Under the pieces are notes generated by a model. The model saw nothing but the letters and a program-made list of their open reading frames with translations, was not told the DNA's origin and did not search any database. A DNA stretch of 17,133 nt from the NCBI GenBank assembly GCA_003511885.1, contig DOIX01000140.1, forward strand, positions 5,441 through 22,573, in the 5' to 3' direction. The translations under genes and the position numbers were made by a program. The stretch is from Cyanobacteria bacterium UBA11153. Lineage in GTDB: Bacteria; Cyanobacteriota; Cyanobacteriia; Cyanobacteriales; Coleofasciculaceae. The first letter of the stretch is position 1. Every line of letters starts with the position of its first letter. Shown piece after piece: positions 4,090 to 17,063 of the stretch.

Positions 4090-4353
4090 ATGACCTTTTA
4101 TAAGTTTTATACGCTAGTCCGCTCTACTTTAATATTTTCCACATCAATATTTTCCACATCAATATTTTCTCATCTCTATGATAGCCCTCATCAACTGTCA
4201 ACTGTCAACTGTCAACTGTCAACTGTCCACTGTCCACTGTCAATTGTCAACTGTCAACTGTCCACTGCTGTGCGATCTGATCTTCGCGATCGCCTGATTG
4301 TGCCAATCCCCAAACCACTCTCAAAACGCATTCATTCTTGTACTTCCAGATAA
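4090..4353 (+). CDS. doubtful small ORF built from tandem repeats
   Basis: This 87-codon frame starts with ATG four bases after GGAGG (4081-4085), one of the clearest Shine-Dalgarno sequences in the window. However, most of the frame is translated repeat: STSIF units from a 15-bp repeat and QLSTVNC-like units from eleven heptamers. The heptamer is seven bases long, so three units restore the frame, which keeps the array open by chance. The first 15 codons (MTFYKFYTLVRSTLI) do not derive from repeat. It may be the 5' remnant of a gene invaded by repeats, a small expressed peptide, or noise. No known family was recognised. Confidence 0.2.
   Translation: MTFYKFYTLVRSTLIFSTSIFSTSIFSHLYDSPHQLSTVNCQLSTVHCPLSIVNCQLSTAVRSDLRDRLIVPIPKPLSKRIHSCTSR
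4131..4169. repeat. 15-bp tandem repeat, 2.6 copies
   Basis: Two exact copies of AATATTTTCCACATC (4131-4145, 4146-4160) and a partial third copy (4161-4169). The period is a multiple of three, so it keeps the frame of the weak ORF around it. Confidence 0.7.
4192..4268. repeat. heptanucleotide tandem array, 11 units
   Basis: Eleven consecutive 7-bp units: mostly CAACTGT, with CCACTGT variants at 4227, 4234 and 4262 and one CAATTGT at 4241. It resembles the short tandemly repeated repetitive (STRR) heptamers described in cyanobacteria. There is no spacer structure, so it is not a CRISPR array. A HIP1 octamer follows shortly after. Confidence 0.85.
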
Positions 4354-5322: not shown

Positions 5323-5357
5323 CCAATAACCATTAACCAATAACCATCAACCATCGG
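5323..5357. repeat. heptamer repeat overlapping flippase stop codon
   Basis: Five adjacent units: CCAATAA, CCATTAA, CCAATAA, CCATCAA, CCATCGG. The flippase stop (minus strand, 5347-5349) and its last few codons lie inside the fourth and fifth units. The same CCAATAA unit recurs at 13760-13787. Confidence 0.75.
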
Positions 5358-6693
5358 CACTCTTAGCAGAGAAAAGACTGTAGAAGATGGAAGGATTAAC
5401 TCGAACATGTTTGACAACCAAGAGAGAAAGCCACACATTCCACAAAACCAAGGTACAGGTAGTGCTGATAGCTGCGCCGACAATGCCAAACATGGGAATT
5501 GCGATCGCATTGCCCACTATATTAAGTAAAGCACAGGAAGCAAAGACAGGGAGAGACTTATTTTGATTCCCTGTCATTACCATTAAAGGGGCAACGGAAC
5601 CGCAAAAGCAATCCACCAACCGTCCTAACACTAGCACTTTTAATGACCAAGCTGCTCCGATAAAGCCTGGGCCAAAAATCCGCAAAATTGGCTGAGTAAA
5701 ACTTAACAATATTAGGGCGATAACAACAGAAGGCCAGAATATCCACAAACTTACCTTAGATACTACCTTTTGTAAGTCTTCCATATTTTTTTGAGCATAG
5801 AGAGTAGCCAAGGTAGGTGCTACCACCATATTTAACATTTCTAAAATGCAGGTAACCCAGAGAGCCGTTTTGACAGCAGCATTATAAACCCCTGTTGCCT
5901 CTGGTCCGATGAAAGAACCAACCATGATAATATCGGTTTGGTCTAAGATGATAAAAAATGCCCGCTGGACTAAGAGAATTAGGGATAAACTGAGCCACTG
6001 ACGGTAGGCATAACGGGGGGCAGCAGATTCAACTTTTTCTTTAACTTTTTGTCCGATAAAGAATAACTGAAATAGGACAATTACCAATAACATTAAAGTC
6101 GCTACACCAATCATCGATGAACTCTTGAGGGAGTGGTGAGTTTCCAGGAAGACAAATCCACCACAAATAACCAAAACAGGCCACATGATTTGATAGGGCA
6201 AATAGGCTAAGGTAATGTCATCCATTGCCCTGGAAGTTTCCAACTGTAATTGTTGTAATGCCTGTAGGGATATCAAGCCAAGTCCCGTGAGGAGAGGTAC
6301 GGCATAGAGGAAATTGCGATCGCGATTCAGTAATAGTACAATCCCGGCAGCTATTAATGATACTAGTAAACTTGATAAGAGAGTCAGTAGCCAACTTCCG
6401 CGAATTATCCCGCGTAAATGTCCCCAGTCTTGGACTACTCGGTATTGGGAAATAGATCGCAAAACGGCGCGAGGCAAACCTAATCCGGCGGGAATTGCTA
6501 GGAATAATGACCAGGCAATAACATATTCGTATATACCGTATTCTCCTCTTCCCATCCATCGGGCGAGGACTACCTGAAGGAGGTAGGTAAGAAATAATCC
6601 ACCAATTTGGATAATTAAGGCTACTCCAGCATCTTTTGCTAGGGCTTCTAAGGTGGTATTTTTTTGGGTTTGAGAAAATGAGGATTGGGTCAT
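5347..6693 (-). CDS. polysaccharide flippase (Wzx/MVF superfamily)
   Basis: The 448-aa protein is almost wholly hydrophobic, with about 12 or more predicted helices, which is the normal length for Wzx-type O-antigen/exopolysaccharide flippases. Family-typical segments are 'QIGGLFLTYLLQVVLARWMGRGEYGIYEYV' (in pieces) near the N-terminus and GPEATGVYNAAVKTALWV in the middle, where the 'G..G.Y..A' pattern matches this superfamily. It would move undecaprenyl-linked oligosaccharide units across the inner membrane for exopolysaccharide or capsule assembly. No polymerase or glycosyltransferase gene is intact in the window, so the polymer is unknown. The last three residues (ADG) and the stop are encoded by a heptamer repeat, so the natural C-terminus may have been altered. 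ATG at 6691-6693 has no strong Shine-Dalgarno. Confidence 0.85.
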   Translation of the reverse strand: MTQSSFSQTQKNTTLEALAKDAGVALIIQIGGLFLTYLLQVVLARWMGRGEYGIYEYVIAWSLFLAIPAGLGLPRAVLRSISQYRVVQDWGHLRGIIRGSWLLTLLSSLLVSLIAAGIVLLLNRDRNFLYAVPLLTGLGLISLQALQQLQLETSRAMDDITLAYLPYQIMWPVLVICGGFVFLETHHSLKSSSMIGVATLMLLVIVLFQLFFIGQKVKEKVESAAPRYAYRQWLSLSLILLVQRAFFIILDQTDIIMVGSFIGPEATGVYNAAVKTALWVTCILEMLNMVVAPTLATLYAQKNMEDLQKVVSKVSLWIFWPSVVIALILLSFTQPILRIFGPGFIGAAWSLKVLVLGRLVDCFCGSVAPLMVMTGNQNKSLPVFASCALLNIVGNAIAIPMFGIVGAAISTTCTLVLWNVWLSLLVVKHVRVNPSIFYSLFSAKSADG

Positions 6694-8367: not shown

Positions 8368-10596
8368 ATGCCCAAGAAACAGATCAAAGGTTACCAGAAG
8401 GGAGCTACTAACTGCCCAAGCCCAGAGAAGAAGGCATCTTTGTCATCAGCGATATTGGCGACAATATCAGTGTTATCAGTGGGAAGCTTTGTACCAGAAG
8501 CAGTAGCAACACCCCAAGGTGAAGTCCTCCAGACAGAGGTATCAGAGGATACTCAGTCTAGTCTATGTCTGGGAAGTTCAGAATTGGTTTTGGAGGGAAA
8601 TAATTCCGGAAATAAATCGCCAGAAACCTTAGTTGTCTGTAAAAATCATTTAGCATTCCAGAAGGAAACAATAAGTTTTAGCACATCATCGACGACAATT
8701 ATCGAGTCTGGCACAGATACTCAAGGTCAAGGATTATCTGCCTTATTGGGAGTGGGAGAAGAGGCAGAAGACAAACAAAGATTAGTATTAGCAGAGAAAT
8801 TGCCAATAGCGATCGCAAAAAGTCCCAACGACGCGATCGCATCCCATCCTACCACACCAGTGACAGAGCCTCAAACAGTGACGGTAGTAGAGGGAGCCGG
8901 AATTGAGATTGCAAAAAGTCCCAACGACGCGATCGCATCCGATACCGATCCTACCATCCAACCAAACCAACCGGATAGTTTATTTTCCCCACTTCCAGAA
9001 GAAATTGTGGAAGATCCTCTGGAAAATTTGTTAAAAGATTCTCAATCCTTAGATAACTCTAACCCAGATTCTGAAACTAACAATGAGTTAGATCAAGTAA
9101 CATCAGTTACCCAACTTTCTGATATCAAACCCACAGACTGGGCATACCAAGCCTTACGAGAATTAGTTGAACGTTATGGCTGCATCGCAGGATATCCCGA
9201 TGGTACATATCGAGGAAATCGCGCCATGACTCGCTATGAATTTGCCGCCGGATTAAATGCTTGTTTAGATAGCCTTTACAGATTAATCGGTGAAGGGCCA
9301 AGCAATCCTGTGGGGACAGAAGATTTAGACAGTATTAAAAGACTACAACAAGAGTTTGCCGCAGAATTATCCCAATTAACCGGAAGAGTTGATAACTTAG
9401 AATCGCGGACAGCAACATTAGAAGACAATCAGTTTTCCACTACCCTCAAGATGAATGGGTTTATCGACATGAGCTTGATAGACGCATTTTCTGGGGAAGG
9501 CAACAACGAAACAGTATTTCAATATAGTCTTTTGCTCCCATTCAGAGCCACCTTTACTGGCAAAGATCGGTTAGACTTTAGTTTCTTAACAAATAATACG
9601 ACAGCCTTCGATTTTAATACTACCAATAACGGAAGAAATGTCGGAGTTGGAGGTGAAGGCACAGTTGCTTGGGGATTTGGCGGCAGTTCAGATAACGATA
9701 TAGTTTTAGGTAACCTAGACTATACTTTTCCCATAATTCCCAACAAATTTATTGTTACCGTATTTACCGACAGAGCATTTGGTGCAGGCGGAAGTACAAT
9801 TGATTCAGATCGCCGCACTCTAGGTTTAATTCCCGGACAACCTATATCAGTTTTTGGTGTCCGTGCCCCTCTCTCGCGAATTACTGGTAGATCTGGTATT
9901 TTAGCAAGATATCAAATTAATGAAGCATTGCGTTTTGGTGTAGCTTATGAAGCCACTCCAGGCTCTAATCCTGAAGAAGGTTTGTTCAACGGTAATTATT
10001 ATGCCGTAGGGCAAATGGTATTTACCCCTTCTGACAGACTAGGGATGATTTTTACCTACGGTAATACTTATGCCCTACCTGGTCAATTTAAGTTTAGCCG
10101 CAACCGGAATCGCGTCAATGCCCGTCCATTTCTTGGTAGTGCCCTTGCTAGTAGATTTGATAACCGAGGCGTGTTTTTTGATACCGACGTACCAACAGTC
10201 ACTAACTTCTATGGAATCCAAGGATTTTTTCAAATTACGCCCCAAATAAATATTGGTGGATTCGTCAACAAATTTAGTTCCCGATTGATTGGGCGTGGCG
10301 ATGCCGATATTTGGTCTTATGCTGCTATTTTAACAGTCAGAGATCTATTCAAGCGAGGAAATGTAGCTGGTTTAGTTGTGGGGATGGAACCTACTTTAAC
10401 TGGTTTGAGAAAAGGAGATAATTTTGTCGGCGGTTTTGAACGAGATACCTCATGGCATATTGAGGCTTACTATAAGCACAATCTCACTAATTCTATGTCG
10501 CTGACGACAGGTGCGATGTGGATTACAGCACCTAATCAGGATGATGAGAATGAAGATATTGTCATGGGTACGCTGAGAATGCAAATTGCATTCTAA
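8368..10596 (+). CDS. SLH-domain OprB-type outer-membrane porin
   Basis: This 742-aa protein is of the cyanobacterial porin type, often annotated as iron-uptake porin, though the solute is not shown here. A Sec signal peptide ends about A47 (EAVA|TPQ). Residues about 48-245 are a low-complexity, acidic linker. An SLH domain (about 250-300) contains 'TDWAYQALRELVERYGCIAGYPDGTYRG' features and 'MTRYEFAAGLN', and should hold the protein to the peptidoglycan layer. A coiled coil follows (about 318-352, LQQEFAAELSQLTGRVDNLE). Residues about 360-742 form the OprB-like beta barrel, ending in the C-terminal phenylalanine (QIAF) typical of outer-membrane insertion. The linker carries two copies of AKSPNDAIAS from a 30-bp repeat containing HIP1. 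It is the first gene of the plus-strand sulfatase cluster. Confidence 0.9.
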   Translation: MPKKQIKGYQKGATNCPSPEKKASLSSAILATISVLSVGSFVPEAVATPQGEVLQTEVSEDTQSSLCLGSSELVLEGNNSGNKSPETLVVCKNHLAFQKETISFSTSSTTIIESGTDTQGQGLSALLGVGEEAEDKQRLVLAEKLPIAIAKSPNDAIASHPTTPVTEPQTVTVVEGAGIEIAKSPNDAIASDTDPTIQPNQPDSLFSPLPEEIVEDPLENLLKDSQSLDNSNPDSETNNELDQVTSVTQLSDIKPTDWAYQALRELVERYGCIAGYPDGTYRGNRAMTRYEFAAGLNACLDSLYRLIGEGPSNPVGTEDLDSIKRLQQEFAAELSQLTGRVDNLESRTATLEDNQFSTTLKMNGFIDMSLIDAFSGEGNNETVFQYSLLLPFRATFTGKDRLDFSFLTNNTTAFDFNTTNNGRNVGVGGEGTVAWGFGGSSDNDIVLGNLDYTFPIIPNKFIVTVFTDRAFGAGGSTIDSDRRTLGLIPGQPISVFGVRAPLSRITGRSGILARYQINEALRFGVAYEATPGSNPEEGLFNGNYYAVGQMVFTPSDRLGMIFTYGNTYALPGQFKFSRNRNRVNARPFLGSALASRFDNRGVFFDTDVPTVTNFYGIQGFFQITPQINIGGFVNKFSSRLIGRGDADIWSYAAILTVRDLFKRGNVAGLVVGMEPTLTGLRKGDNFVGGFERDTSWHIEAYYKHNLTNSMSLTTGAMWITAPNQDDENEDIVMGTLRMQIAF
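8815..8940 (+). repeat. 30-bp HIP1-containing direct repeat inside porin gene
   Basis: Identical 30-bp copies occupy 8815-8844 and 8911-8940, 96 bases apart and in frame. Each contains the HIP1 octamer and encodes AKSPNDAIAS (residues 150-159 and 182-191). Both lie in the disordered linker between signal peptide and SLH domain, where length changes should be tolerated. Confidence 0.9.
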
Positions 10597-10931
10597 GGGG
10601 TACTAAGTTAGAAGTAACCAGTCACTAGAGCCTCGATACAGAAACCGGGTTTCTTTTGGCAAACCGCTCAAATTTCACAGGCAGCACTTACAAGAAACCC
10701 GGTTTCTAGCAATAATGAATGGCGAATTGCTGCAAAAATATAAACAGCGTAACCAAGCATCCTTATCGACTTTCTCAATTCTCCAGCAAAATACCGAATA
10801 GTTGAATCACAAAAGCACAAACAAAAGACAGGATAGAAAAAAAAAAGGAGAGAAAATATTTAGAAAATATTAGGAACAAAAGATACCATGCCAAAATCCA
10901 GTAATTAAACAATACCATTCAGGAGGAAGCG
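10597..10931. other. intergenic region between porin and lipoprotein genes
   Basis: 335 bp without a gene. It contains a large inverted repeat (10640-10707) shortly after the porin stop, and a run of ten A (10837-10846) followed by GGAGAG. AATATTT-aga-AAATATT forms a small dyad at about 10855-10871. The AGGAGG Shine-Dalgarno for the next gene lies at 10921-10926. Confidence 0.6.
10640..10707. repeat. 16-bp inverted repeat of AGAAACC-type palindromes
   Basis: AGAAACCGGGTTTCTT (10640-10655) is the exact reverse complement of AAGAAACCCGGTTTCT (10692-10707). Each arm is also an odd palindrome in itself (AGAAACC, one base, GGTTTCT). The RNA could therefore form one long stem or two short ones. 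It begins 43 bp after the porin stop and may act as a terminator or mRNA-stabilising structure; I associate this motif with dispersed repeats in cyanobacterial intergenic DNA. Confidence 0.7.
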
Positions 10932-12140
10932 GTGAATACAATCCGTAAAATTCGTAAGTATTTTCTAGCCACATTGCTTTTCATTGTTTTGCTCGTGGGG
11001 TGTGGTTATAGTCAAGACTCTTCCCAAGCTTTACCCTCTAGCAATAACCAAGAATCTGTCCAAGCTGTCGCCTCCACAAGTGGCACTGTTATCCCTTTTG
11101 ACTCTAATAAATGGGAATTTAATGCCAAAACCAGTACAATTCAAGAGTTTCTAGGGAAAAAAAGTCTCTTACTAGAAGAGGGGACTGCCACAATTAAAAA
11201 TGCCAACTTCACCGATGGGATTATCGAGTACGATATAGTTTTACCCAACGGTCCAGGATTTTTAGGAACAATGTTCCGGATGGAGGATCATAAAAATTTT
11301 GAAGAATTGTATATTCGCAGTACTCGTTCCGGATTGCCTGATGCTGTCCAGTATAACCCAATTCACAATGATGTTCTATCTTGGCAGTTGTTCTCCAGTC
11401 GTCAGGAACCCTTTACGGCTACTGCTAAATTTAATGTTGGAGAATGGACTCATGTTAAAATCGCTGTCTTGGGAAAAAATGCCGAAATTTACGTCCAAGA
11501 GATGGAGAAACCAGCACTCTTTGTGGACTTAAAGCGGGAAGTTAAACCAGGTGATATCGGCTTAATTGCCATTCAAGATTCTGCCCCAGGTTATTTTGCC
11601 AATTTCTCTTACACCACCACTAAACCAACTCTCAAAGGTAGCCCCAAAGAAACACCAGCAGTTACACCAGGTACGGTAAAATCTTGGCTAGTTTCCAATA
11701 CTTTCAGTGAAAAGTTACTAGATGGCAAATATTTACTAAGTAACCAAGAACAAAAACAGTTGACTTGGAAAAAACTGCCAAGTTATCCTTCTGGAGTCAC
11801 TAATTTAGCTATAGTAGCAGAACCCACACCAGAGAAAGATACGGTTTTTGCGAAAGTTACCATTGTTTCTGATAAGGAGCAATTCAAAACCCTTGATTTC
11901 GGCTTTTGCAATCGCGTCAAGGTTTATTTGAATGGGCAGAAAATCTATGGTGGTAATGATGACTTTTTCTCCCGCGATTACAGGTTTATGGGAACGCTGG
12001 GTTATTTCGATCAAGTTTACTTACCTTTGAAAAAAGGTAAAAATGAAGTTTGGCTGGCTGTATCTTCCGGTTTTCCGACTAATGGTTGGGGACTTCAAGC
12101 CAAAATTGATGATTTGACAGGAATTTCTTTTGAAAAGTAG
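10932..12140 (+). CDS. lipoprotein with LamG/DUF1080-like and Gal-binding-like domains
   Basis: The 402-aa product starts with GTG, five bases after AGGAGG (10921-10926). The N-terminus is a lipoprotein signal: basic MNTIRKIRKYF, a hydrophobic core and lipobox L21-V22-G23-C24. Residues about 50-228 look like a concanavalin-type beta sandwich of the LamG/DUF1080 kind (GIIEYDI, FEELYIRSTRSG, 'WTHVKIAVLGKNAEIYVQ', YFANFSY). A Pro-rich linker (about 232-250) leads to a C-terminal jelly-roll resembling galactose-binding folds (about 306-402: RVKVYLNGQKIYGG, 'DQVYLPLKKGKNEVWLAV'). No catalytic residues could be assigned, so a glycan-binding role is inferred. It is the first member of a tandem paralogous pair, 108 bp before the next gene's first possible start. 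Confidence 0.85.
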   Translation: MNTIRKIRKYFLATLLFIVLLVGCGYSQDSSQALPSSNNQESVQAVASTSGTVIPFDSNKWEFNAKTSTIQEFLGKKSLLLEEGTATIKNANFTDGIIEYDIVLPNGPGFLGTMFRMEDHKNFEELYIRSTRSGLPDAVQYNPIHNDVLSWQLFSSRQEPFTATAKFNVGEWTHVKIAVLGKNAEIYVQEMEKPALFVDLKREVKPGDIGLIAIQDSAPGYFANFSYTTTKPTLKGSPKETPAVTPGTVKSWLVSNTFSEKLLDGKYLLSNQEQKQLTWKKLPSYPSGVTNLAIVAEPTPEKDTVFAKVTIVSDKEQFKTLDFGFCNRVKVYLNGQKIYGGNDDFFSRDYRFMGTLGYFDQVYLPLKKGKNEVWLAVSSGFPTNGWGLQAKIDDLTGISFEK

Positions 12141-12148
12141 GGAAGGTT

Positions 12149-12186
12149 AATGGGGAATGGTTAATTTATGGTTAACTTTCCCCATT
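12149..12186 (+). terminator. 9-bp inverted repeat between the paralogues
   Basis: AATGGGGAA (12149-12157) pairs with TTCCCCATT (12178-12186) around a 20-base loop made of GGTTAAT-like units. It begins eight bases after the first paralogue's stop and is followed by CTGTTGGG, not a T-tract. It may attenuate read-through rather than end transcription. Confidence 0.35.
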
Positions 12187-12284
12187 CTGTTGGGATGGGT
12201 ATGGTGTTGATTTATAGGGATCGTTTTTTTTAGCATAGAGGTACGGAAATGTTTTGGGATAATCTGAAAAAGAGGATGTTTCAG

Positions 12285-13457
12285 ATGAAAAGCAAATTAT
12301 TTAAGTATGTTTTGGGGGTAGTTGTCTGTTTACTGGTAATTTTGGGGTTGGGTTATCCTCAAGATTTATCATCTGCTAATAGTGCTGTCATCCCTTTTGA
12401 TTCTGCTAGATGGAAGATTGGCGGTAAACAGAATAAAATTGAGGATTATTTGGGAGAAAAGAGTCTTTTGCTTAATTTTGGACGGGCGATTGTGAAAGAT
12501 TCTCAATTCAGTGATGGGATAATTGAATATGATGTGGCTTTTGGTGAGGGGAGAGGTTTTGCTGGGGCGCTGTGGCGCGATGAAGATGGGCAAAATCGTG
12601 AAGAGTTTTATATGCGAATTCACCAATCTGGGAATCCCGACTCTTGTCAGTATACGCCCGTGTTTAATGGTTTGCTTAACTGGCAACTCTATTCAGGTGA
12701 AGGATATACCGCCCGGTTTAAATATCCTTTAAATCAATGGATACATGTCAAAATTGTTGTGGCGGGTAAGGAAGCTGAGGTATATGTTGAGGATATGAGT
12801 AAGCCACTCTTATTTATACCGAAATTACAACATTCGGTTAAAGAAGGTAAAATAGGTTTGTTTGTGCTAACCGAATCAACTACGCCCATTCATTTTGCCA
12901 ACTTTAGCTACGTCGCCACCAACAATCCGCCGCTAAAAGGCCAAGTAAAAGAGCCTAAACCTACTCCTCCTGGTACAATTATGTCTTGGTCTGTTTCTCA
13001 AGCCTTCGATGAAAAATCTGTCGATGGTAAAGTAGAGCTAAATAAAGCCGAAAAACAAAACTTAACCTGGCAAAAAGTCAGGAGCGAATCCACAGGATTG
13101 TTTAATATCGGGAGATTAGAAGGGATTGTCGGAGAGAAGAATACGGCTTTTGCCAAAGTGACAATTATTTCCGACACAAAGCAGGTTAAGCGGTTGCACA
13201 TCGGATTTAGCGATCGCACTCGATTATATCTCAACAATCGCTTACTATATGAAGGTCGTGATGAGTTTACTTCTAGGGATTACAGGTTTCTGGGCACTAT
13301 CGGTTATTACGATGCGGTGTATTTACCTCTGAAAAAAGGTGAAAATGAACTTTGGCTAGCTATTTCTGACACTACTGATGATGTCGGTGGTGGCGGCTGG
13401 GGATTCCAATCTCGTTTTGATAATATGGAGGGTATTTCTTTAATTATTAATAGCTAA
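12285..13457 (+). CDS. exported LamG/DUF1080-like paralogue lacking lipobox cysteine
   Basis: This 390-aa protein aligns along its whole length with the preceding gene: VIPFDS, 'SDGIIEYDV', FYMRIHQSG, 'WIHVKIVVAGKEAEVYVED', HFANFSY, then 'SRDYRFLGTIGYYDAVYLPL' in the C-terminal jelly-roll. The signal sequence MKSKLFKYVLGVVVCLLVILGLGYPQ matches the paralogue's, but its lipobox VGC is GL here (VILGLGYPQD against LLVGCGYSQD). It should therefore be soluble in the periplasm, secreted, or held by an uncleaved signal. ATG 12285 (AGAGGA at 12271-12276) gives a standard signal peptide; ATG 12249 (AGAGG at 12237-12241) would add 12 residues and is a fair alternative. The stop codon lies in a heptamer repeat. 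Confidence 0.83.
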   Translation: MKSKLFKYVLGVVVCLLVILGLGYPQDLSSANSAVIPFDSARWKIGGKQNKIEDYLGEKSLLLNFGRAIVKDSQFSDGIIEYDVAFGEGRGFAGALWRDEDGQNREEFYMRIHQSGNPDSCQYTPVFNGLLNWQLYSGEGYTARFKYPLNQWIHVKIVVAGKEAEVYVEDMSKPLLFIPKLQHSVKEGKIGLFVLTESTTPIHFANFSYVATNNPPLKGQVKEPKPTPPGTIMSWSVSQAFDEKSVDGKVELNKAEKQNLTWQKVRSESTGLFNIGRLEGIVGEKNTAFAKVTIISDTKQVKRLHIGFSDRTRLYLNNRLLYEGRDEFTSRDYRFLGTIGYYDAVYLPLKKGENELWLAISDTTDDVGGGGWGFQSRFDNMEGISLIINS

Positions 13458-13473
13458 TGGCTAATGGCTAATA
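13453..13473. repeat. GCTAATG heptamer array overlapping stop codon
   Basis: GCTAATG (13453-13459), GCTAATG (13460-13466) and GCTAATA (13467-13473). The TAA stop of the second LamG-like gene (13455-13457) lies within the first unit. GGGAATG-type heptamers follow directly (13474-13487). Confidence 0.7.
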
Positions 13474-13487
13474 GGGAATGGGGAATG

Positions 13488-13708
13488 AGAGCATCCCGAT
13501 GTATTCTTGCTCCCCTCTTTCATACCAAATCCGCTTTTTAAACCCCCGTTATCATTATGCCATTTTTTTCTCCCCTGCTTCCTTCTCCCTTCTCCCCAGC
13601 TTTTTTAGATAAAGGGGGTAATTAATCTAGATTGGGTATCACAAGGGGAGCTGGAGGGGTGAAAACCTTGGCAAAAACAAGTTTCTTTGCCTTGATTGGG
13701 ATGCTCCC
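13488..13708. mobile_element. 221-bp MITE-like element with flanking direct repeats
   Basis: The ends are inverted repeats: the arm at 13488-13500 and the arm at 13695-13708 share a perfect GAGCATCCC/GGGATGCTC core with mismatches around it. Further dyads lie inside (CCAGCT 13596-13601 with AGCTGG 13649-13654; GGCAAA 13670-13675 with TTTGCC 13686-13691). The element is bracketed by direct copies of GGGAATGGGGAAT (13474-13486 and 13711-13723). No ORF is present. The direct copies could be a target duplication or two pieces of a GGGAATG heptamer array. Confidence 0.45.
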
Positions 13709-13759
13709 TGGGGAATGGGGAATAGAAAATAGAAAATTTTATTAGCAATTAGTAATTAA

Positions 13760-13787
13760 CCAATAACCAATAACCAATAACCAAAAA
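13760..13787. repeat. CCAATAA heptamer array abutting FGE start codon
   Basis: Three exact CCAATAA units (13760-13780) and a CCAAAAA variant (13781-13787) end two bases before the ATG at 13790. They occupy the entire ribosome-binding region, and no purine-rich Shine-Dalgarno is present. Confidence 0.85.
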
Positions 13788-13789
13788 TA

Positions 13790-14854
13790 ATGAATAAAAA
13801 AACAATCAAAATTATCATATTTGGAGTATTAGGTGGTTTACTACTCGCTTTTCTATTAGATTACAGCTTTGGTGTATTTAATAGATGGCAAACAGCCCAT
13901 AGCACAAATCACTCAGATCCGAAAATTAAGGTCATCGCTAATAGCAATATTACCCTTAAATGTCCGCCAGAAATGGTAGCAATTCCTGGCGGTACTTTTA
14001 CCATGGGATCTGACAATCATTATGAAGAAGAAGAGCTAGTCAAAGATGTTAAGGTAAAAAATTTTTGCATGGACAAATATGAGATAACTAATGCCCAATT
14101 TGCCCAATTTGTTAAAGAAACAGGATATATTACGATTGCCCAAAAACCATTACCTCCTGAAAATTTCCCCAATCTGTCTGAAGCACAGCGGAAACCTGGT
14201 TCATTAGTATTTCAGCCCCCATCTGGCAACCAACCAATTCCAGAGCTTAGTTGGTGGAGTTGGGTACCAGGTGCAAATTGGCAACATCCCGATGGTCCTC
14301 ATAGCAATATTGAAGGAAAAGATAATTATCCTGTTGTCCAGATTGCCTACCAAGATGCTGAAGCTTATGCGAAATGGGCAGGAAAATCTCTCCCCACAGA
14401 AGTAGAATGGGAATTTGCCGCCCAAGGTGGATTAAAAAATGCCATCTACACTTGGGGCAACGAATATTCTGCCACCAAAGCTAATACCTGGCAGGGAGAG
14501 TTTCCTATCAAAAATACAAAAGAAGACGGATATGTAGGTACAGCGCCAGTGGGATCTTTTCCAGCCAATGGCTATGGATTATACGATATGGCAGGTAATG
14601 TTTGGGAGTGGACAAATGACTGGTATCGTATGGGACATGAGGGTAAATCTCATCAAACTAATCCTACCGTATCTAATCCTAACCAAAGTTTCGATCCGCG
14701 AGAACCTGGTGCAGCAAAACATGTTATTAAAGGTGGTTCCTATTTATGTGCCCCTAATTATTGTAGCCGTTATCGCCCCGCTGCCCGCGAAGCCCAATCA
14801 CCCGATACTGGTACATCTCATATTGGATTTCGCTTGGTAAAAGTTCCAGGTTAG
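13790..14854 (+). CDS. formylglycine-generating enzyme (SUMF1/FGE), membrane-anchored
   Basis: The enzyme oxidises the active-site cysteine of type I sulfatases to C-alpha-formylglycine, using O2 and copper. The 354-aa sequence carries the family landmarks: MVAIPGGTFTMGSD (about 59-73), MDKYEITNAQFAQFV, 'PGANWQHPDGP', WAGKSLPTEVEWEFAAQGG, ANTWQGEFPIKNT-EDG, GYGLYDMAGNVWEWT, and the C-terminal GGSYLCAPNYCSRYRPAARE. C320 and C325 sit in the same C-x4-C spacing as human C336/C341, so this is a true FGE and not only a member of the wider FGE-sulfatase domain group (EgtB-like or kinase-linked). Residues about 8-25 form a transmembrane helix after a basic start (MNKKTIK) with no cleavage site, which predicts a periplasm-facing domain. 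The cognate sulfatase is the next gene. The start codon directly follows a heptamer array with no Shine-Dalgarno. Confidence 0.95.
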   Translation: MNKKTIKIIIFGVLGGLLLAFLLDYSFGVFNRWQTAHSTNHSDPKIKVIANSNITLKCPPEMVAIPGGTFTMGSDNHYEEEELVKDVKVKNFCMDKYEITNAQFAQFVKETGYITIAQKPLPPENFPNLSEAQRKPGSLVFQPPSGNQPIPELSWWSWVPGANWQHPDGPHSNIEGKDNYPVVQIAYQDAEAYAKWAGKSLPTEVEWEFAAQGGLKNAIYTWGNEYSATKANTWQGEFPIKNTKEDGYVGTAPVGSFPANGYGLYDMAGNVWEWTNDWYRMGHEGKSHQTNPTVSNPNQSFDPREPGAAKHVIKGGSYLCAPNYCSRYRPAAREAQSPDTGTSHIGFRLVKVPG

Positions 14855-14945
14855 AGATAAGCTGCTACACTTTTAACAAAGTCTGTTTTGAGAGGAGGGG
14901 AGCTTATTGAGAGGGTTTGATCGATTTTTTTTCATATATAAAATA

Positions 14946-15075
14946 TATAGCACTACCAAGACATATTAGGACGTTGTTTTAACTTCAATCCTGAATTAAG
15001 AACAACGTAGTTTGAGAATATGTCCTAACCTTAATGCTTTGAGAATATGTCTTAACCTTAATGCGTAGCGCTATA
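14946..15075. mobile_element. 130-bp MITE-like palindromic element
   Basis: Terminal inverted repeats TATAGCACTAC (14946-14956) and GTAGCGCTATA (15065-15075) match at 10 of 11 positions. Inner complementary pairs are ACGTTGTT (14971-14978) with AACAACGT (15001-15008) and GACATATT (14960-14967) with AATATGTC (15017-15024). The right side has a 27-bp unit in tandem (15011-15037, 15038-15064, one mismatch), so a second AATATGTC lies at 15044-15051. No ORF is present. The TA-containing ends would suit IS630/mariner-type mobilisation, but no clear target duplication could be defined. Confidence 0.5.
15011..15064. repeat. 27-bp tandem duplication
   Basis: Two adjacent 27-bp units (15011-15037 and 15038-15064) differ at one position only (C15025 against T15052). 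Both lie in the right arm of the MITE-like element. Confidence 0.9.
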
Positions 15076-15101
15076 CAGTTTAAATTAGCAGTAGCTTATA
15101 G

Positions 15102-15122
15102 CAATTGACAATTGACAATTGA
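15102..15122. repeat. CAATTGA heptamer array, 3 units
   Basis: Three exact CAATTGA units (15102-15108, 15109-15115, 15116-15122) are followed by CAGGGAG. On the opposite strand these read TCAATTG, and they are related to the CAATTGT unit of the 4192-4268 array. Confidence 0.8.
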
Positions 15123-15262
15123 CAGGGAGAAAGTCGGCAAACCTAAAATCTCAAACTTGAGACTTTGACTCATATCCAAAATATTAAAAAATATTAAGTT
15201 TTGATGAAAAGTAAAATCACCATGAAAAATTCTGCTAAAATCTTACCTTAAGAAATAGACCT

Positions 15263-15277
15263 CTCTAATGTTTAGAG
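15263..15277 (+). promoter_or_regulatory. hairpin just upstream of sulfatase start
   Basis: CTCTAA (15263-15268), loop TGT, TTAGAG (15272-15277) ends one base before the sulfatase ATG at 15279. If formed in mRNA it would cover the usual ribosome-binding zone. It is AT-rich and only 6 bp, so the effect may be small. Confidence 0.3.
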
Positions 15278-15278
15278 T

Positions 15279-17063
15279 ATGTTGCAAAGAATTACCAGAC
15301 TTATTTTCGTAGCTAGCGTTACTACCGTTGCAGTCATCTTCTCTTCATCAGTGAGAGAAAGTGCAAGCGGACAATCAAATAGACGTTCCAAAGATGAGCG
15401 TCCTAATATTGTTATCCTAGTCGCCGATGACATGGGATATACCGATATAGGAGCTTATGGTAGTGAAGTCCCGACACCAAATATAGATGCTTTAGCTAAT
15501 AAAGGCATGAAGTTTACTAATTTTCATGTCGGACCATCTTGTTCTCCCAGTCGTTCTATGATCTTAACTGGTGTGGACAATCATAAAGCTGGCTTTGGCT
15601 CAATGCGAGATAGAATTACTCCTAACCAAAAGGGCAAGCCGGGATATGAAGCTCATCTTACCCAACAAGTAGTTACCTTCGCTGATATGATGAAGGATTC
15701 TGGATATCACACTTATATGGTGGGTAAGTGGCACATGGGCGAAGAAAGAGAATTTTGGCCCTATTCAAGAGGATTCGAGCAATCCTTTGCTATGTTGCAA
15801 GGTGCGGGAAGTCACTACACCAATGGTGGATTCGATCATTTAGATCCCATAAATACCTTTGTCGAAAACGATAAAATGGTAAGCACTTTACCTAAAGATT
15901 TTTACTCGACCAAAACTTTTACAGATAAGACAATTGAATTCATCGATAAAAACAGAAAGGATGACAAGCCATTTATCGCTTATATGGCTTACACAGCACC
16001 ACATTCTCCCTTCCAAGCCCCCCAAGAATATATCAAAAAATATATGGGCAAATATGATGCGGGTTGGGATAAAATCCGGGAACAACGCTTCAAACGGATG
16101 AAGGAGTTAGGTATTATTCCCGACTACATCAATTTACCGCCAAGATGGCCGATGGTGAAAGCTTGGGATCAGCTATCTCCAGAAGAAAAGAAGATAGAAT
16201 CGAAAAAAATGGCAGTTTATGCTGCTATGATCGACTATTTGGATATGAGTATTGGTCGATTTGTGAAATATTTGAAAGATACTGGTGAATATGATAACAC
16301 CATCTTTATCTTTATGTCTGACAATGGTGGTAGTATTCACGATGTCAGTCATGGTATGCCAGAATATGAGGAATGGCTGAAAAAGAGTGGCTACGATAAT
16401 AGTTATGAAAATATCGGGAATCCCAACTCTTTTACCAGTACTAGTTTTGGTTGGGGACAGGTAATTACTACACCTCATTGGGCAGCCAAAGGTACAGTAG
16501 CATCTGGCGGAATTAAAGCCCCATTTTTTGTTACTTATCCTAAAGCAATTAAACCAGGAATAACTCGTGCTTTTGCTAATGTGCGGGATATGACTCCTAC
16601 TTTCTTAGATTATGCTGGAGCTAAAATGCCCGGTAATAAATACAAGGGTAAGAGTATCTATCCCATTGAAGGAAAATCTATGCGCCCTTTATGGGAAGGG
16701 AAAAAAGAGCGGATTTACGGAGATAACGATCCCGTAGGTTTTGAACTTTATGGGAAAGCTAATAAGGCTTTAATCTTAGGCGATTGGAAAATCCTGCGAC
16801 TGGGAGATATGCCATGGGGCAGCGGTAATAATGAGAAATGGAAGCTGTTTAATATGGCAATCGATCCCACAGATATGAACGATTTATCGGCAATTTATCC
16901 CAATCAGGTGCAAAAAATGATTGCTTTGTACGAGCAATATGAGAAGAATGTGGGAGTTGTGCCTGCTGAAGCACCACAATCGAGTTTAGTTAATCCTAAT
17001 GTGGGAATTAATCCTGAAGTAGGGAATATTTTCGATAATGGGTTGCTGTTACCGAGTAATTAA
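15279..17063 (+). CDS. secreted type I (cysteine-type) arylsulfatase
   Basis: The 594-aa protein hydrolyses sulfate esters. It begins with a signal-peptide-like segment (MLQRITRLIFVASVTTVAVI, possible cleavage near ESASG|QS). The alkaline-phosphatase-like sulfatase fold follows: metal ligands D50-D51 in VADDMGYTDIGAYG, and the formylglycine motif C88-S-P-S-R92-x4-T-G, in which C88 would be converted by FGE. Then come K150/H152 in VGKWHMG, H242 in TAPHSPF, and D348-N349 in SDNGGS. Length and the 'GVDNHKAGFGSM' segment resemble arylsulfatases of the AtsA group, with the natural substrate unknown. It lies 424 bp after the FGE gene on the same strand. Its export means that it meets FGE either before or during translocation, or at the periplasmic face where this FGE is predicted to sit. 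No Shine-Dalgarno is obvious. Confidence 0.95.
   Translation: MLQRITRLIFVASVTTVAVIFSSSVRESASGQSNRRSKDERPNIVILVADDMGYTDIGAYGSEVPTPNIDALANKGMKFTNFHVGPSCSPSRSMILTGVDNHKAGFGSMRDRITPNQKGKPGYEAHLTQQVVTFADMMKDSGYHTYMVGKWHMGEEREFWPYSRGFEQSFAMLQGAGSHYTNGGFDHLDPINTFVENDKMVSTLPKDFYSTKTFTDKTIEFIDKNRKDDKPFIAYMAYTAPHSPFQAPQEYIKKYMGKYDAGWDKIREQRFKRMKELGIIPDYINLPPRWPMVKAWDQLSPEEKKIESKKMAVYAAMIDYLDMSIGRFVKYLKDTGEYDNTIFIFMSDNGGSIHDVSHGMPEYEEWLKKSGYDNSYENIGNPNSFTSTSFGWGQVITTPHWAAKGTVASGGIKAPFFVTYPKAIKPGITRAFANVRDMTPTFLDYAGAKMPGNKYKGKSIYPIEGKSMRPLWEGKKERIYGDNDPVGFELYGKANKALILGDWKILRLGDMPWGSGNNEKWKLFNMAIDPTDMNDLSAIYPNQVQKMIALYEQYEKNVGVVPAEAPQSSLVNPNVGINPEVGNIFDNGLLLPSN

Follow-up and report, generated by a model that had tools for sequence, protein, structure and literature searches.

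The formylglycine-generating enzyme (FGE) of prokaryotes has been placed in the cytosol and needs copper and O2 (PMC4505483), and the Cys-type sulfatases that such enzymes activate are typically cytosolic according to a review (PMC3920027). A protein with the FGE fold is known from the periplasm, namely OCTIN (PMC5915273). A study of microbial mats found signal peptides on all the sulfatases of its cyanobacterial metagenome-assembled genomes and tied sulfatase activity to fresh cyanobacterial extracellular polymeric substances, FGE export not being discussed in the available sections of that paper (PMC9723792). In the open-access literature we found no statement of an exported catalytic bacterial FGE; subscription journals lay mostly outside the search, and novelty is unproven. 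Here we describe a stretch of 17,133 nucleotides from Cyanobacteria bacterium UBA11153, hereafter the window (positions 5,441-22,573 of an 88,150-bp contig; genome 6.65 Mb, 95% complete), in which an FGE gene is followed by a Cys-type sulfatase gene and both products begin with a predicted export signal. We consider it probable, if well short of certain, that the locus serves a secreted sulfatase and that the activating FGE, too, is exported. The reading is based on the gene content, sequence motifs, hydropathy signals, FGE clades, a match between FGE class and sulfatase topology, and natural LamG-sulfatase fusions, and from these we infer the location, activity, substrate and glycan binding discussed below.

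The preliminary description of this DNA had listed five same-strand genes with their domains, the sulfatase motif and the catalytic cysteines of the FGE, all of which are borne out by the open reading frames (ORFs), the Pfam/NCBIfam matches and the motif positions:

8368..10596, + strand: SLH/OprB porin of the por_somb family (NF033921 396 bits, OprB 111.7 bits, SLH 34.9 bits)
10932..12140, + strand: LamG1, putative two-domain accessory protein with export signal; lipobox-like LLVGC (C24); CBM66-like first domain in a model
12249..13457, + strand: LamG2, paralogue of LamG1 (48% identity), with N-terminal hydrophobic signal; lipobox Cys not seen
13790..14854, + strand: FGE of class A, with catalytic C320/C325 and class-specific C58/C93
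13790..13880, + strand: N-terminal hydrophobic segment of the FGE, putative signal or signal anchor, preceded by positive charges; 15-residue hydropathy 2.86
15279..17063, + strand: Cys-type arylsulfatase of the AtsA kind with export signal; CSPSR at C88, Pfam Sulfatase 213 bits

The FGE of the window and its two cyanobacterial classes

The FGE gene encodes a full-length domain (PF03781/FGE-sulfatase, 278 bits, profile positions 3-255 of 255), residues 61-350 match the human FGE 6s07 (E 2.6e-78), and the catalytic pair C320/C325, which lies in KGGSYLCAPNYCSRYR, aligns with 6s07 at both positions, so that the earlier designation as a true FGE holds. Like the SUMF1-type enzyme, it has both catalytic cysteines and adjoins a Cys-type sulfatase, and in its predicted export it resembles the FGE of eukaryotes, which resides in the endoplasmic reticulum (ER). 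Unlike the cytosolic prokaryotic FGE described in PMC4505483, it has an N-terminal export signal and an extra, class-specific Cys pair. Export together with the FGE fold is shared with OCTIN and with GldK/PorK; however, OCTIN lacks the catalytic cysteines (PMC5915273), and against the GldK profile the window FGE scores 163.7 bits, below the cut-off of 350. Ten PF03781 matches in the genome fall on nine genes, eight of which were read; only the window FGE has the catalytic pair among these eight, and the ninth gene (on C154) gave no match to it. The N-terminal hydropathy of the window FGE lies within the range of the class to which it belongs (1.89-3.31; intact members of the other class reach at most 1.25), and a structure model has a helix at residues 3-37, with a block predicted local distance difference test (pLDDT) score of 81-92 in the first 30 residues, the rest of the model being poor (overall pLDDT 50.9). 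Positive charges precede the hydrophobic stretch, and the C-terminal part is therefore predicted to lie outside. The preliminary description had recorded the export signals of the locus, but the oddity of an exported FGE went unremarked.

FGEs were surveyed in 147 related genomes, the window genome included, and in 386 genomes of the phylum, two samples that overlap, with N-terminal signals judged by hydropathy and not by a trained predictor. Eleven weaker matches from the phylum sample, with E values of 1.6e-77 to 1.4e-66 and in most cases an end close to query residue 280, were left out. The survey otherwise gave 71 FGE ORFs, and 68 of these have a readable start once G018, G019 and G082a (our genome numbering), whose start is truncated or missing, are set aside. 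Class A, which has a hydrophobic N-terminus and includes the window FGE, comprises 46 of the 68, and class B, which has none, the other 22. In the numbering of the window FGE, positions 58 and 93 are both cysteine in all 46 members of class A, while all 22 of class B have P or A at 58 and W at 93. A single branch with support 100/100 separates the two classes in a tree of 66 rows, from which a duplicated name and a truncated row had been removed. Both the signal and the two Cys pairs are present in 108 of the 120 nearest FGE proteins; of the remaining 12, nine have a start of insufficient length for a call, two fall below the threshold and one has Y at 58. Synechococcus elongatus, too, has a class A-like FGE on record (P0218), in which C58 and C93 are present and the start is annotated short.

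It could be argued, in keeping with the usual bacterial picture and the cytosolic placement in PMC4505483, that such an FGE is merely anchored by its N-terminus, that its catalytic part is cytoplasmic and that the sulfatase is modified before Sec export. In four genomes, to which we return below, the sulfatase orthologue bears a signal and the FGE paired with it has none, and because of them pre-export maturation must be possible somewhere. However, the hydrophobic stretch of many class A FGEs ends in a cleavage-like A-x-A (SPAFA, SPALA, GVAWA), of which an inside-facing anchor has no need, the extra Cys pair tracks the signal throughout both classes, and the charges of the window FGE predict the opposite orientation. 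For the FGE of the window we regard a cytoplasmic catalytic part as unlikely.

FGE class and the topology of the neighbouring sulfatase

A pair was defined as a sulfatase within 500 bp of an FGE on the same strand, and an FGE could contribute at most two pairs. Class A gave 30 pairs from 29 FGEs, and 28 of the 30 sulfatases have an N-terminal signal, the two signal-less partners (G082b and G034b) being 5'-truncated ORFs. Class B gave 15 pairs with a signal score in two (G001 and G021); Tat-type RR motifs are found in the class B partners of G001 and G435, and RRLLI in that of G021. Four genomes (G260, G282, G401 and G410) have both kinds of pair, one each. Sulfatases of the CxAxR type have a signal beside class A (G084b and G117) and none in nine of nine cases beside class B. 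Fisher's test of the match between class and topology gives 1.3e-7, and 0.0017 for the CxPxR kind alone. Since the FGE classes split only once, these values serve as description, and the former overstates independence.

This dependence on one split of the FGE tree is the first of several points that weigh against an FGE acting outside the cytoplasm. The signal calls rest on hydropathy, and the FGE model is too poor for the putative C58-C93 disulfide to be checked on it. Seventeen of the 46 FGEs in class A lack a same-strand sulfatase partner at 500 bp or less, and signal-less CxAxR sulfatases lie 5.7 kb (G026) and 2.9 kb (G099) from a class A FGE. The four genomes mentioned above (G050, G090, G122 and G021) contain a sulfatase orthologue with a hydrophobic N-terminus and, at E <= 1e-60, only a class B FGE. 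Finally, the second sulfatase of the window genome, described below, has no signal, although the one FGE of that genome in which the catalytic pair was found is of the exported type.

Beyond the cyanobacteria, 50 genomes bearing homologues of the LamG-like pair, of 80 loci, were searched for FGE, and 23 of them had a match at E <= 1e-40. Among the FGEs of Bacteroidota (L257-L270, L272-L274, L280-L282), lipoprotein-like signals were seen by eye in 18 of the 21 scoring at least 280 bits, and both catalytic cysteines were present in all ten whose catalytic region was inspected.

Sulfatases, LamG-like pair and gene neighbourhood

The window sulfatase, which carries a sulfatase domain and a CxPxR motif, has as its closest solved relative the arylsulfatase AtsA of P. 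aeruginosa (1hdh; residues 40-566, E 1.3e-135), an enzyme assigned to SulfAtlas S1_4 (PMC5066984). The AtsA active-site residues listed in PMC6388578, Asp13, Asp14, Arg55, Gly61, His211, Asp317, Asn318 and Lys375, correspond in the alignment to D50, D51, R92, G98, H242, D348, N349 and K404, and thus the window sulfatase keeps the active-site positions of AtsA but, unlike it, has an N-terminal export signal. The genome has only one other S1 sulfatase, a LamG-S1 fusion starting about 3.1 kb past the window end (contig 25,721-28,243; L004:3322-5844), with CSPSR at C288 behind a LamG_3 domain and no signal peptide. The window FGE is likely to activate both, because it is the sole gene with the catalytic Cys pair among the eight PF03781 genes read.

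Directly after the fusion come three tandem H-type lectins with signal-like N-termini (L004:5937-7315) and then a candidate sulfated natural-product cluster (L004:7475-19179 and L005:1911-3368), with three sulfotransferase-like genes and genes for a thiamine pyrophosphate enzyme, a class III aminotransferase, chorismate lyase-like, radical SAM/HemN-like and cyanobactin-oxidase-like (ThcOx) proteins and an AMP ligase. Upstream of the cluster, between the two sulfatases, lie thioester-reductase-like and TauD-like genes (L004:481-2811). Such surroundings, and the kinship with AtsA, would suit a sulfatase that acts on small aromatic or alkyl sulfates, for instance the products of this cluster, and not on a polysaccharide. 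However, the cluster is mostly on the other strand, the second sulfatase and the lectins separate its sulfotransferases from the window sulfatase, and the LamG-sulfatase fusions and the CBM66-like fold described next suggest a glycan, so that we hold a small-molecule substrate to be quite improbable.

The naming of LamG1 and LamG2 as a tandem paralogous pair of LamG/DUF1080-like proteins stands in part. They are paralogues (48% identity across 363 aligned columns) and belong to a real family (303 proteins at E <= 0.001, some of them filed under PF06439), and a fold search with a structure model suggests that the first domain is CBM66-like; their own scores against PF06439 (3-keto-disaccharide hydrolase, DUF1080), 20.1 and 23.0 bits, fall below the gathering cut-off of 26.8. 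Low template-modelling scores led us to disregard fold matches to unrelated beta-sandwich proteins. Identity to a CBM66 module is 19%, and the LamG-like proteins differ from it in having a further domain, about 170 residues long, which the preliminary description called Gal-binding-like. A LamG profile search against PDB sequences gave no match up to E 1, and a simple pattern found a lipobox-like motif in only 16 of 120 family members.

Among the homologues are six natural fusions of the family to an AtsA-type sulfatase, the LamG half of which is matched better by LamG2 than by LamG1; in some relatives the LamG module is C-terminal. The family is found in three of the 147 relatives and two of the 386 phylum genomes (own genome counted), always with the sulfatase orthologue. 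By chance, the two LamG genomes other than the own one would both be among the eight of 146 with that orthologue with a probability of 0.0026. A link between the LamG-like family and this sulfatase type is thus supported by the fusions, by the co-occurrence and by contig-length matches (three LamG-sulfatase, three LamG-FGE). In neighbourhoods anchored on LamG (the best 80 of 487 loci, one titled as a cyanobacterium), a best match to the window sulfatase was found in L013, L036, L039, L067 and L086; L035 and L037 each had a best match to the LamG-sulfatase fusion, L060 had an FGE (33 bits), and none of the 80 had a porin near LamG. The commonest neighbour (L051:8528-9625 and relatives) lies within 5 kb in 42 of these 80 loci, the 30 loci listed being Bacteroidota by title; the one member scanned had no Pfam match, and the LamG neighbours in other phyla gave no function. 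In a Thioploca metagenome-assembled genome (L086:7634-9886), an AtsA-like sulfatase upstream of the LamG gene has a nucleophile motif of the serine type (STPAR).

A match to the window sulfatase at E <= 1e-20 was present in 38 of the 147 genomes and a close orthologue in nine, the window genome included (52-60% identity in the others); a tenth, G263, came from the phylum sample (three of 386 at E <= 1e-120), and the neighbourhood comparison covers the eight other genomes of the nine. The FGE gene adjoins the sulfatase gene in the window and likewise in four of these eight (Oscillatoria salina, G022; Spirulina sp. CCY15215, G069; Xenococcus sp. PCC 7305, G084; and G021), in agreement with the earlier assignment of the FGE to the Cys-type sulfatase, and the two lie on separate contigs in G072, G050, G090 and G122. 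LamG was absent from the fetched stretches of all eight, some of which end at contig ends. A LamG gene beside the FGE across the contig break in Oscillatoria salina was considered and rejected, since the first 1,180 bases before the FGE are occupied by another 392-codon frame, which is still open at the contig end. The preliminary description had proposed to check whether the five genes stay together across cyanobacteria and had named an FGE and sulfatase kept without the LamG-like pair nearby as one observation that would refute its module; the four genomes with adjacent genes present that arrangement, and a conserved five-gene set is rejected from both the LamG-anchored and the sulfatase-anchored neighbourhoods.

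These comparisons bear on the proposal, also made there, that the five genes form one polysaccharide-use module with the porin importing the products. The genes do share a strand and a stretch, and three other genomes have a related porin in the vicinity of the sulfatase, at a distance of 1.3-1.5 kb in G050 and G090 and of about 7.8 kb in G069. However, LamG is rare and missing from the eight neighbourhoods, the FGE is adjacent in only half of them, and the gaps between the five genes are 335, 108, 332 and 424 bp, because of which the stretch is no tight operon. The porin belongs to a family named iron uptake porin (curated cut-off 100 bits), is the twelfth by score of the 14 por_somb members above cut-off in the genome, and has relatives that were tied mainly to ions in work on Anabaena and Synechocystis, the same porin paper reporting an OprB porin required for sugar uptake by a symbiotic Nostoc. 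A role as importer is unsupported, the porin is probably a bystander, and we give the single module very little credence. The statement that the window has no SusC/D, TonB receptor or glycoside hydrolase was correct for the 11 window proteins scanned, and a Pfam scan of these and 15 downstream proteins (L004, L005) revealed neither a SusC/SusD pair nor a TonB receptor with glycoside hydrolases, by which a polysaccharide-utilisation locus would be recognised.

Promoter-like sites were as frequent in the window as in shuffles, and terminator-like sites rarer. A 27-bp unit stands in two direct copies between the FGE and sulfatase genes (15011-15064), and there are 7-bp tandem arrays at 4191-4267 and 13757-13784. 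Upstream, on the opposite strand, is a flippase-like polysaccharide gene (5347-6693; MatE/Polysacc_synt), which may belong with the locus because a good match to it (574 bits) adjoins the FGE-sulfatase pair in Spirulina too (L128).

Proposed maturation outside the cytoplasm

For the secreted-sulfatase locus that we favour, a pathway can be envisioned where the sulfatase precursor would cross the membrane unfolded via Sec and a membrane-anchored FGE would oxidise Cys88 to formylglycine beyond the cytoplasm with O2 and copper, in the periplasm or possibly the thylakoid lumen. The need for copper and O2 may be one reason for the export of the FGE. The mature sulfatase would strip sulfate from an extracellular or envelope glycan, LamG1 and LamG2 might serve as carbohydrate-binding helpers that keep its substrate in place, and the porin would have no role beyond that of an ordinary neighbour. 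More broadly, and with confidence somewhat better than even, we suggest that cyanobacteria, and Bacteroidota as well, use an exported FGE to activate sulfatases beyond the cytoplasm, just as happens in the ER of eukaryotes, and that two FGE-sulfatase pairs operate in some cyanobacterial cells, each specific to its compartment, the one inside and the other outside.

If this is true, the rule of a cytosolic FGE would fail for many cyanobacteria and for the Bacteroidota examined, and the prediction of sulfatase maturation and the expression of such sulfatases would change. For aldehyde-tag work, an FGE that is exported naturally would suggest itself, and the natural fusions would tie a hypothetical LamG-like family to desulfation. 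It would also explain how Sec-exported Cys-type sulfatases can mature: with the FGE step outside the cytoplasm, ordinary Sec-exported precursors would be matured after export, in a compartment that may give easier access to copper and O2.

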